DNA of 24,568 nt from a virus. The notes beneath the pieces were generated by a model, which was not told the origin of the DNA, did no database searches, and saw only the letters and a program-made list of their open reading frames with translations. The translations under genes were made by a program, and so were the position numbers. Where the stretch lies: positions 1 through 24,568 of IMG/VR virus record IMGVR_UViG_3300033148_001747, one strand, 5' to 3'. Position 1 is the stretch's first letter. Each line of letters starts with the position of its first letter. Positions 2,893-12,549 of this stretch are shown here, in pieces.

Positions 2893-2907
2893 TATAACTT
2901 TAGCTTT

Positions 2908-3001
2908 GGCGGGGCGGGTGGCCTTGTAGCTCAATTAGGTAGAGCGTTGCTACCAAGCGACAGGTTGCCGGTTCGAATCCTGTCATTGCTCCCACCTCGC
3001 C
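2908..3001 (+). repeat. Long inverted repeat enclosing the tRNA-like element
   Basis: GGCGGGGCGGG (2908-2918) pairs with CCCACCTCGCC (2991-3001) at 10 of 11 positions, counting one G-U. The helix stacks almost directly on the imperfect acceptor stem of the tRNA-like element. A 5' leader/3' trailer helix is possible in precursor tRNAs, but one this GC-rich that includes the CCA would oppose normal 3' maturation. No T-run follows, so it is not a typical terminator. Confidence 0.5.
2920..2994 (+). tRNA. Degenerate tRNA or tRNA-like element (possible anticodon ACC)
   Basis: Seen directly: T8-A9, a D arm GCTC (2929-2932)/GAGC (2942-2945) with a GG-containing loop, a T loop TTCGAAT (2972-2978) and 3' CCA (2992-2994) at 75 nt, all in tRNA spacing. 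Oddities: the acceptor GGCCTTG/CATTGCT has two mismatches and a G-U. The T stem has one mismatch. The anticodon stem GTTGC (2946-2950)/GCGAC (2957-2961) pairs well, but the loop has only 6 nt (TACCAA) and base 26 is missing. The flanks 2908-2918 and 2991-3001 pair over 10 of 11 positions, burying the CCA in a longer helix. This suggests a decayed tRNA or a structural mimic. Anticodon ACC would read Gly GGU, which is rare in bacteria. Confidence 0.5.
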
Positions 3002-3009
3002 AAACCTTA

Positions 3010-3039
3010 TTGACAAACCCCTCTGTATTCTGGTATAAA
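3010..3039 (+). promoter_or_regulatory. Strong sigma70-type promoter before the packaging genes
   Basis: TTGACA (3010-3015, perfect -35), an 18-nt spacer, then TATAAA (3034-3039, 5 of 6) preceded by TGG, which gives an extended -10 (TGnTATAAA). Transcription should start near 3046, about 22 nt before ATG 3068. The -35 and -10 lie inside the arms and loop of the terminator-like hairpin at 3015-3063. A small inverted repeat CTGGT (3030-3034)/ACCAG (3043-3047) covers the -10 and might also serve as an operator. It probably drives the terminase-portal operon. Confidence 0.75.
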
Positions 3040-3067
3040 AGAACCAGTAACGCAGGGGGGTTTTTTT
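3015..3067 (+). terminator. Intrinsic-terminator-like hairpin enclosing the promoter
   Basis: AAACCCCTCTG (3015-3025) pairs with CAGGGGGGTTT (3053-3063) over 11 bp with one G-T wobble. An inner hairpin CTGGT/ACCAG (3030-3034/3043-3047) closes much of the loop. Seven T (3061-3067) follow immediately and run into ATG 3068. Transcripts arriving from upstream could fold the full hairpin. Transcripts starting at the embedded promoter (~3046) would lack the 5' arm and could not. The large loop makes it weaker than a compact terminator, although the nested hairpin helps. Confidence 0.6.
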
Positions 3068-3253
3068 ATGGCAAAGAAAGACGCGCCGCTAAAGATAACA
3101 GTTCAAATGGTTGGCATGAAGAACCTTAAGATAACCGGAGGATGGCGCTTAGAGTTTGACCTCTTTGAAAGCAAGCTTGTAGATATTCTATCAGTTACGG
3201 CCTTAGTCAATGAACAAAAGACAGTCGAGATAACGATTCGGCCTCTTGAGTAA
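3068..3253 (+). CDS. Unknown 61-residue protein, first gene of the late operon
   Basis: ATG 3068 lies directly after seven T. The only ribosome binding site candidate is AGGGGGG (3054-3060), 7 nt upstream, which is also the 3' arm of the terminator-like hairpin. Long transcripts may therefore hide this site, while transcripts from the embedded promoter expose it. The protein starts MAKKDAPLKITVQMVG and reads as alternating strands (LKITGGWRLEFDLF, VDILSVTALVN, KTVEITIRPL), suggesting a small beta-fold. I do not recognise the family. Its position just before the terminase genes suggests a late or packaging-related role. Confidence 0.65.
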   Translation: MAKKDAPLKITVQMVGMKNLKITGGWRLEFDLFESKLVDILSVTALVNEQKTVEITIRPLE

Positions 3254-3271
3254 AATACACAAGGATTGCAC

Positions 3272-3607
3272 ATGGCAGAAGGAAAAGGGAAAAACGGTAA
3301 CTTTACTAACGCTGGGAAGGGTCGCCCCAAGGGTGCGAAGAATAAATTAACTAACCTTAAGGATGCTTTCCTTAAAGCCTTTGACGACATAGGCGGGACG
3401 GAAGAACTTGTCGTGTGGGGAAAGAAACCACAGAACCGAGGCGAGTTCTATAAGATGATTACGAAACTCTTTCCGAAAAACATTGAACTCTCAGGAGAAG
3501 ATGGTGGAGCACTTCCTCTCTTACTTGTACTCCCGGAGATAGATGAAGCGCAAGACAGATACGAAAAAGAAAACAAGCCGAAAAAAGCCGAGGGCAAAAA
3601 AAAGTAA
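3272..3607 (+). CDS. Putative terminase small subunit
   Basis: ATG 3272 is chosen over TTG 3266 because AAGGA lies 7 nt before it. The 111-residue product has a basic N-terminus with an AT-hook-like GRPKGAKNKLT motif, typical of small phage proteins encoded directly before the large terminase (DUF5681-like and TerS-like proteins). Helical segments follow (LKDAFLKAFDDIG, REFYKMITKLFPKNIE in outline), then a Lys-rich tail. The small subunit would bind phage DNA and recruit the large subunit at the packaging start. The call depends mostly on position and the basic motif, since small terminases diverge quickly. Its end overlaps the next gene by 65 nt in another frame. Confidence 0.6.
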   Translation: MAEGKGKNGNFTNAGKGRPKGAKNKLTNLKDAFLKAFDDIGGTEELVVWGKKPQNRGEFYKMITKLFPKNIELSGEDGGALPLLLVLPEIDEAQDRYEKENKPKKAEGKKK

Positions 3608-4991
3608 CTTAATCATCTTCCCTAAAAAGAAGAAAGAGCCTTTGCCTGATGTGCCTATTGGCTGGACTCCGCAACTCGGCCCACAGACTCTATTCTGTCG
3701 GTCAAGTGAGTTTGAGGTATTCTACGGAGGAGCCGCTGGTGGAGGTAAATCGGATGCACTCCTAATGGAGGGCGCTCGGTACGCATGGCATCCGAAGTAT
3801 CGCGGTATTATCTTTAGACGTACAACCCCACAGCTTAAAAAAATCATAGATAGATCAGAAGAACTATTCCCGCATTTCTTCCCCGGCTGTATCCTCAGAG
3901 ATACTAAGCGTTATGGCCTTCATTGGCTATTCAAGGGCGGCGCTCGGCTCGGCCTTTCCCATATGGAGAATGAGAAGGACAAGTTCAAGCAAGACGGTAT
4001 GGAGTATCATTTTATCGGATTCGATGAGCTCCAACACTTCTTATTTACTCAGTATAAATATATGTACTCCCGCGCGAGGTCGAGCGTAGCGGAGCTTAAA
4101 CCGCGCATCCGCGCAACTGGTATGCCTATCGGCCCCGGCGTTATATGGGTAAAGGATAGGTTCATTAATGACGATCCTACGCTCATAGAGAAGGTGGTCT
4201 ATGATGAGGAATCCGGCCTAACCCGGCGCTTCATCCCTGCCAAGCTCGATGATAATCAAATCCTAATGAAATCAGATCCCCAATATGAGAACGTATTAAA
4301 ACTCATGGGTAAGAAGCTCTATCATGCTTTACGTCATGGTGATTGGAATTCTATAGAGGGCGCGAGCTTTGAGGAGCTCAACAAAGAGGATCACGGAAAG
4401 CCTCCGCATGAACCGCCAGAGGGTGTTCAGGTCTATCGATGCCTCGATTGGGGCTATGCCAAGCCCTTCTCGGTGGGCTGGTACTATCTTGACAACGATA
4501 AGAACTTGGTTCGCTTCAAAGAATGGTATGGTTATGGTGGAGAGCCGGACAAGGGACTCCGCATGGAAAGCAGGGACGTTGCGAGGAAAATACTTGAAAT
4601 TGACAAGAGATATAATGTAGCATATGGAGTAGCGGATCCCTCCATCTGGTCTAAAGACGATGGGCCGAGTATTTACGAGAATATGAGGGATGAGGGGGTC
4701 GATTGGAATCCCGCTATCAACGACAGGGTGAACGGTAAGATCGAAATTCATACAAGGTTGCAAGGAGAAGGGGGTGTTCCTTGGGTTTATGTTACTTTAG
4801 ACTGCCATCATTGGTGGCGGACTGTTCCGATGCTACAGGCCGCGCCGAACAAGGCCGAGGACGTAGATACCAAAATGGAGGACCATTGTTTTGATGAATT
4901 TCGCTATATGTGTATGAACTTTCCTATCCATAAAGGCACTACCGAGATATGGACAGGCGATATAAGGACAACAGCTAAACAGGACTTTTGA
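3543..4991 (+). CDS. terL: Terminase large subunit (packaging ATPase/nuclease)
   Basis: A 482-residue protein that pumps DNA into the prohead and cuts it. Walker A is GGAAGGGKS at residues 62-70. Walker B is HFIGFDE at 156-162, ending in the catalytic acidic pair. The C-terminal RNase H-like nuclease shows its expected acidic residues in CLDWGYA (Asp302), VADPSIW (Asp365) and HCFDEFRY (Asp451). Layout and length fit the Terminase_6/6C type. ATG 3543 has GGAG 4 nt upstream. The first ~35 residues are Lys-rich and overlap the small-subunit gene, and no better downstream start exists before the ATPase domain. No key residue appears to be missing. Confidence 0.95.
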   Translation: MKRKTDTKKKTSRKKPRAKKSNLIIFPKKKKEPLPDVPIGWTPQLGPQTLFCRSSEFEVFYGGAAGGGKSDALLMEGARYAWHPKYRGIIFRRTTPQLKKIIDRSEELFPHFFPGCILRDTKRYGLHWLFKGGARLGLSHMENEKDKFKQDGMEYHFIGFDELQHFLFTQYKYMYSRARSSVAELKPRIRATGMPIGPGVIWVKDRFINDDPTLIEKVVYDEESGLTRRFIPAKLDDNQILMKSDPQYENVLKLMGKKLYHALRHGDWNSIEGASFEELNKEDHGKPPHEPPEGVQVYRCLDWGYAKPFSVGWYYLDNDKNLVRFKEWYGYGGEPDKGLRMESRDVARKILEIDKRYNVAYGVADPSIWSKDDGPSIYENMRDEGVDWNPAINDRVNGKIEIHTRLQGEGGVPWVYVTLDCHHWWRTVPMLQAAPNKAEDVDTKMEDHCFDEFRYMCMNFPIHKGTTEIWTGDIRTTAKQDF

Positions 4992-12436: not shown

Positions 12437-12466
12437 TTGACAGAACAGTAAAAATAGTTCTATTAT
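12437..12466 (+). promoter_or_regulatory. Strong sigma70-type promoter before the head-maturation genes
   Basis: TTGACA (12437-12442, perfect -35), an 18-nt spacer and TATTAT (12461-12466, 5 of 6). Start of transcription is expected near 12473. An inverted repeat AGAAC (12442-12446)/GTTCT (12457-12461) fills the spacer and touches both boxes, so a repressor could bind there. It lies in the only sizeable non-coding gap of the region (12354-12572) and should drive the exported-protein and capsid genes, subject to the terminator at 12512-12549. Confidence 0.7.
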
Positions 12467-12472
12467 TGAGAA

Positions 12473-12549
12473 AACAGGGACAGCTTCCAAAAAACTAATT
12501 AGAGCCTTCCAGAAGGGCCGCGACTTTAAAACGTTGTGGCTCTTTTTTT
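12473..12549 (+). ncRNA. Predicted leader or small RNA ending at an intrinsic terminator
   Basis: Transcription from 12437-12466 would begin near 12473 and meet the terminator ending at 12549, giving an RNA of about 77 nt. An AGAGCC at 12501-12506 can pair with GGCTCT (12538-12543), competing with the terminator stem, so an antiterminator form is possible. A small CCTT/AAGG hairpin (12505-12516 region) adds further structure. It contains no clear leader peptide. It may be an attenuator for the downstream capsid operon or a free small RNA. The ends are predictions. Confidence 0.4.
12512..12549 (+). terminator. Intrinsic terminator upstream of the exported-protein gene
   Basis: AAGGGCCGCGAC (12513-12524) pairs with GTTGTGGCTCTT (12533-12544) over 12 positions with three G-T wobbles. 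The loop is TTTAAAAC, and seven T (12543-12549) follow, partly shared with the stem end. It lies 24 nt before ATG 12573 and after the promoter at 12437, so it either stops read-through from the island or attenuates the new transcript. Confidence 0.75.

Follow-up and report, generated by a model that had tools for sequence, protein, structure and literature searches.

A putative fused promoter, terminator and Shine-Dalgarno-masking hairpin before the terminase operon of a viral contig

At positions 3010–3067 of the viral DNA analysed here, a sigma70-type promoter, a terminator-like hairpin with its T-tract and the Shine-Dalgarno (SD) sequence of the next gene share one short stretch. The window is a whole viral contig of 24,568 nt (IMG/VR record IMGVR_UViG_3300033148_001747, positions 1–24,568). 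We consider it probable that this element is a boundary in which promoter, terminator and SD masking are fused into one combined mechanism. The sequence, its pairing, the statistics and the recurrence with preserved pairing are direct observations.

We propose that polymerase arriving from the upstream tRNA/early-type block transcribes both arms of the hairpin, whereupon hairpin and U-tract would terminate transcription. In RNA that escapes, the SD of the first downstream gene would remain paired as part of the 3' arm, with little translation. A sigma70-type host polymerase would start at the embedded promoter near 3046, within the hairpin. Since such promoter-born RNA lacks the 5' arm, it would form no terminator hairpin and its SD would be far more accessible. 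By termination, SD locking and internal restart the terminase/head operon would thus be shielded from transcription coming from upstream and driven by a promoter of its own. Start site, termination, the effect on translation and timing are predictions of this model.

Parts of the element and gene context

The relevant features of the window are:
140–2892, + strand: early-type region, including an exonuclease-like protein (phrog_10477)
2920–2994, + strand: degenerate tRNA gene, last gene of the upstream block
3010–3015, + strand: -35 hexamer TTGACA (6/6), from the sequence
3015–3063, + strand: hairpin with arms 3015–3026 and 3052–3063 and inner stem 3028–3034/3043–3050
3031–3039, + strand: extended -10 TGGTATAAA (TGG plus TATAAA) in the inner stem/loop of the hairpin
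3054–3060, + strand: SD AGGGGGG in the 3' arm, 7 nt before ATG 3068
3061–3067, + strand: T7 tract, predicted terminator U-tract and spacer between SD and AUG
3068–3253, + strand: 61-aa ORF, first gene of the downstream operon, from codon usage
3272–3607, + strand: probable terminase small subunit (phrog_11043, function unknown; named from its position before TerL)
3543–4991, + strand: terminase large subunit, TerL (phrog_979, E 4.9e-51)
12437–12549, + strand: second junction, before the head operon (gene 12573), with promoter TTGACA-N18-TATTAT
12511–12546, + strand: terminator hairpin and T7 of the second junction, 3' of the promoter and not overlapping it

The genes of the window lie on the + strand, and those upstream of the element are co-oriented with it. 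TerL is followed by the portal gene and, beyond 12.5 kb, by head genes. The element is located between the tRNA gene and the 61-aa ORF and hence at the junction of the early-type region and the terminase-portal operon, where 'early' and 'late' are putative labels based on gene content. ARAGORN calls the tRNA gene tRNA-??? with anticodon (cc), and its Rfam RF00005 score of 29.5 bits lies just above the gathering score of 29. It has a 6-nt anticodon loop, an encoded CCA and mismatches in the acceptor and T stems; an inverted repeat TTTGGCG/CGCCAAA flanks it (window 2905–3004). Codon usage of the 61-aa ORF is coding-like, with a value of 0.199 (0.290 for TerS; -0.82 and -0.26 for the other frames of the ORF). 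No homologue of its product was found in phages, PHROGs or Pfam, and an AlphaFold model calculated without alignment was uninformative (pLDDT 49).

The promoter has an 18-nt spacer and a -10 matching at 5/6 positions plus a TG extension, which agrees with sigma70-type hexamers and spacing. With 13/14 it is the best sigma70-like promoter of the window, both strands considered, compared to 0.03 expected per window. From the spacing to the -10, RNA is predicted to start at about 3046. A preliminary description of the window had named TTGACA, the -10, both arms, T7 and ATG 3068; a check against the sequence found all of these coordinates to be right. The 5' arm reads AAACCCCTCTGT and the 3' arm GCAGGGGGGTTT, and A3015 belongs to both the 5' arm and the -35, as had been noted. 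The -10 was said to lie in the loop. It does lie within the hairpin, but this loop is not open, as it contains the inner stem 3028–3034/3043–3050.

The hairpin consists of 12 outer pairs and the inner stem. Its minimum free energy (MFE) is -26.6 kcal/mol, whereas shuffled sequences reach -11.7 ± 2.9 kcal/mol (z -5.2; 0/200 as good). Its stable GC-rich stem of 12 bp, directly followed by a U-tract, agrees with an intrinsic terminator. The first three T of T7 are able to pair with AAA 3015–3017. The window contains two stems of 11 bp or more that include 5 or more GC and are followed by T5, at 3015 and 12511, with 0.0 expected from 60 shuffles. Only three T7 runs exist on the + strand, two of them preceded by a hairpin. 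Both terminator hairpins are situated at module boundaries, the one at 3015 before packaging and the one at 12511 before head assembly. The - strand side of the element contains no T-run, hence the element is one-directional. A dyad centred near the -10 might also be the operator of a DNA-binding repressor or activator, for which a T-run on one strand is unexpected; we regard this as highly improbable, for a further reason given below. In summary, the -10 lies in a hairpin, the -35 at or before the 5' arm, and a G-rich 3' arm is followed by a T-run and an ATG at 6–12 nt, which together define the class of elements considered in the following.

At the second junction the terminator (z -5.0) follows the TTGACA-N18-TATTAT promoter by ~45 nt. 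It could give rise to a terminated RNA of ~77 nt or belong to an antitermination/attenuation leader. In the predicted fold, CUUCC of the leader pairs with the SD of gene 12573.

Folding and accessibility of the Shine-Dalgarno sequence

AGGGGGG is the sole SD candidate for the gene at ATG 3068. The preliminary description held that upstream transcripts can form the whole hairpin, and this agrees with the MFE and with the computed fold of read-through RNA, in which the SD is fully paired and costs 16.5–18.1 kcal/mol to open. For RNA starting at 3045–3047 the cost is 4.5–5.9 kcal/mol, with a mean probability of being unpaired of 0.17–0.50. The SD is only partly open in this promoter-born RNA because of weak pairing with early codons. 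Consequently, the idea that RNA from about 3046 exposes AGGGGGG applies as far as the lower opening cost is concerned, but the motif stays partly paired. The switch is large and its active state imperfectly open. The difference in opening cost between the two RNAs, folded separately as had been proposed, supports a switch of the kind known from T4 gene e, where the SD is paired in upstream-started RNA and freer in RNA from the embedded promoter (here ~18 vs ~6 kcal/mol).

The same behaviour was found in 33/33 distinct elements, including that of the window. In each of them opening of GGGG is more than 3 kcal/mol costlier in read-through than in promoter-born RNA, with means of 14.3 and 2.6 kcal/mol, respectively. 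These values bear on a rival explanation, in which the hairpin serves the tRNA/early block as its terminator and nothing else, and the overlap with promoter and SD results from genome compactness, with no role in SD masking. The tRNA gene directly preceding the hairpin fits this explanation. However, given any read-through, masking of the SD follows physically from the opening costs.

Recurrence of the layout and preserved pairing

The sequence AGGGGGGTTTTTTTATG (G6T7ATG), as present at the start of the 61-aa ORF, has 53 matches in viral contigs, and in 51 of these it forms the 3' arm of a hairpin resembling a terminator; therefore, the sequence at the ATG of the window is a terminator signature. 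A strict pattern TTGACA..CCCC..TATAA..GGGG gave 0 matches. Viral contigs were scanned with CCCC-N-TATAAT-N-GGGGnTTTTT, which yielded 108 sites. Since CCCC, TATAAT, GGGG and T5 are fixed by this pattern, independent support comes solely from the -35, the inner pairing and the ATG. A -35 with at least 4/6 matches at 16–18 nt is present at 70/108 viral sites (13% expected), and 41 have at least 5/6. Hairpin, -35 and an ATG ORF occur together at 46/108 sites, before 20 unrelated protein families as counted from uncurated contigs. An arm-swapped control pattern produced 65 sites, 2 of them complete. Bacterial genomes contain at least 122 sites, with at least nine complete among the matches listed. 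Complete fused elements precede ORFs of 212–715 aa in five contigs of bacterial genomes (L380, L421, L434, L337 and L392).

Of the distinct hairpins with a promoter, 34/40 are followed, behind the G-rich 3' arm, by an ATG ORF, compared with 5/15 of those without, and 33 of the 34 have a spacing of 6–12 after the last G. This coupling, together with the few complete cases in the arm-swapped control, is not expected if the hairpin is a terminator only. On the other hand, two elements of an 88-kb phage contig (G001, at 67100 and 73778; locus L469) consist of hairpin and T-run with a separate AGGAGG behind, so that termination is possible without masking of the SD; in one of these variants the -10 itself lies within the stem. 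Altogether, we judge a role in termination alone to be rather unlikely for the window.

Strong hairpins that enclose the -10 of a perfect promoter were also collected with no T-run demanded. In seven of the eight, the 3' arm runs into four or more T (3% background), all seven being from two related phages, G001 and G002. These T-runs speak for termination and against a protein operator. Accordingly, a translational switch of the T4 gene e type without termination, in which the SD is merely hidden in upstream RNA, is very unlikely. Its geometry would be that of T4 e, soc, 49 and I-TevI (PMC3014915, PMC2988022), but it accounts neither for undemanded T-runs far above background at the 3' arm nor for G6T7ATG being nearly always within a terminator-like hairpin.

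G001 carries six elements with differing arms before six genes and its relative G002 carries four, whereas the elements are absent from Enterocloster phages related to G001. The operator explanation was rejected because the arms vary among the copies of one phage and among relatives, while the hexamers are constant. Pairing, in contrast to arm sequence, is kept. In the seed interiors, arms form 4.91/7 Watson-Crick pairs with their own partners and 2.61 ± 0.28 with permuted ones. Compensatory changes are found within families, for instance CCCCGTAAGT/ACTTACGGGG versus CCCCATG/CATGGGG before the same gene in L145 and L152. Judged from such comparisons across the class, selection appears to act on pairing and not on the sequence of the arms.

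The layout is also present in cultured phages. Pectobacterium phage CBB, Cronobacter phage GAP32, Serratia phage BF and Xanthomonas phage XbC2 have it before one virion gene, and so do Kaldavass and several Erwinia phages. TTGACA, arms, TATAAT and T-run are kept in these phages; the inner stems differ yet still pair. In Serratia phage BF the element lies before BF_0027. In CBB, mass spectrometry of virions identified CBB_38, the product of the gene behind the element (PMC5259590). For CBB, 18 RpoD-like promoters and 74 terminators have been listed, with no mention of an overlap between the two in the passages considered here (PMC5259590). Taken together, folding, the 46 viral sites and the cultured giant phages favour the insulate-and-restart design suggested in the preliminary description as the best reading of the element.

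Scans of viral contigs with TerL, the MCP and the 61-aa protein and a phage BLAST search revealed no close relatives of the window, the best TerL match having 43% identity over the alignment and 41% by BLAST. Therefore, covariation evidence at the locus of the window itself is lacking. This leaves some room for a chance overlap with no function in this phage, as conservation could not be shown there. Such a coincidence is nevertheless extremely improbable in view of the joint improbability and the position of promoter and hairpin and of the recurrence of the layout.

At 17 of 65 distant TerL loci, a perfect TTGACA-N16–18-TATAAT lies 0.8–2.6 kb upstream of TerL (0.12 expected) without a hairpin of the window type. 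Relatives with the promoter retained and the pairing absent, which had been named as a refutation of the proposed switch, thus do exist, although at 31–41% TerL identity only. At this distance, they tell us only that the ancestor of the family lacked the fusion. In five of the loci (L008, L018, L025, L066 and L074) a separate terminator is located ~460–640 nt further upstream of the promoter; hence the order terminator, sigma70 promoter, terminase operon recurs. Among the window and the 65 distant loci, terminator and promoter are fused in the window only. A perfect promoter on the opposite strand at 15/65 loci indicates that the upstream region is promoter-rich in general. A survey for a -10 within a hairpin gave three cases besides the window in the first 91 sequences (null 0–2), so the layout is not general among TerL relatives. 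One similar-looking site (L027, 4139) was rejected, as neither a T-run nor a gene follows; the promoter of that terminase operon is likely at 4620. At six loci (L061, L062, L069, L078, L082 and L083) perfect sigma70 promoters upstream of TerL have an ATG ~6–10 nt after TATAAT, which suggests leaderless terminase operon mRNAs.

Comparison with known systems and implications

In T4 e, soc, 49 and I-TevI the late promoter is placed such that its own RNA lacks the 5' arm of the hairpin hiding the SD (PMC3014915, PMC2988022). As in these genes and in mobE of phage Aeh1, read-through RNA of the window would hide the SD and RNA from the promoter between the arms would be translated (PMC3014915, PMC2988022). 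The promoter of the window, however, is of the sigma70 type and not a gp55-type late promoter as in T4; TATAAATA, the T4-type late promoter, is not present in the element, whose sequence is a -35/-10 of the sigma70 type. In addition, it has the U-tract of an intrinsic terminator, and its first gene is in a packaging operon. Because of the sigma70-type promoter and the terminator U-tract, we do not assign it to the T4 type.

Like intrinsic (Rho-independent) terminators at operon junctions, the element has a GC-rich stem and a U-tract after the last gene of a block. In contrast to ordinary ones, its loop holds the -10 of the next promoter and its 3' arm is the SD of the next gene. Fold-back control is also known from IS10 and IS50, where the transposase ribosome binding site is hidden in RNA entering from outside and free in RNA from the inner promoter. 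There, hiding is due to the inverted repeat of the element, and a fused terminator is not implied.

In a contig related to T4-like cyanophages (L093, 5484–5525), CTAAATA is found in the loop of a terminator-like hairpin, the 3' arm of which is the SD of a 471-aa ORF directly downstream. For phage Aeh1 this motif has been proposed as the core of late promoters (PMC1524935), hence an equivalent fusion may have evolved with a different type of promoter. As a single case, this fusion with a T4-type late promoter is suggestive only.

No description of the fused promoter/terminator/SD form was found in the literature, in a search of open-licence papers only. The element can be read as a T4 gene e-like switch to which an intrinsic terminator has been added. 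Annotation pipelines list promoters and terminators separately, so a fusion of both would go unreported.

After termination at a hairpin, bacterial RNA polymerase can stay on the DNA and re-initiate at the nearest promoter (PMC11347151). This recycling resembles the present case in that the terminator is very near a promoter, but it does not involve a family of elements. A promoter overlapping a terminator would provide the shortest possible distance for re-initiation. It is conceivable, if doubtful, that host polymerase terminating at this hairpin is not released from the DNA and begins a new RNA at the promoter just passed. If so, the fused element would not only insulate adjacent phage operons but also link them.

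The layout amounts to a compact, searchable rule for how phages relying on host polymerase could keep transcription units apart: a single element of ~60 bp would end one RNA, mask the SD and start the next. Searching with this rule retrieves the design from many unrelated phages; some are cultured giant phages, in which it is testable.
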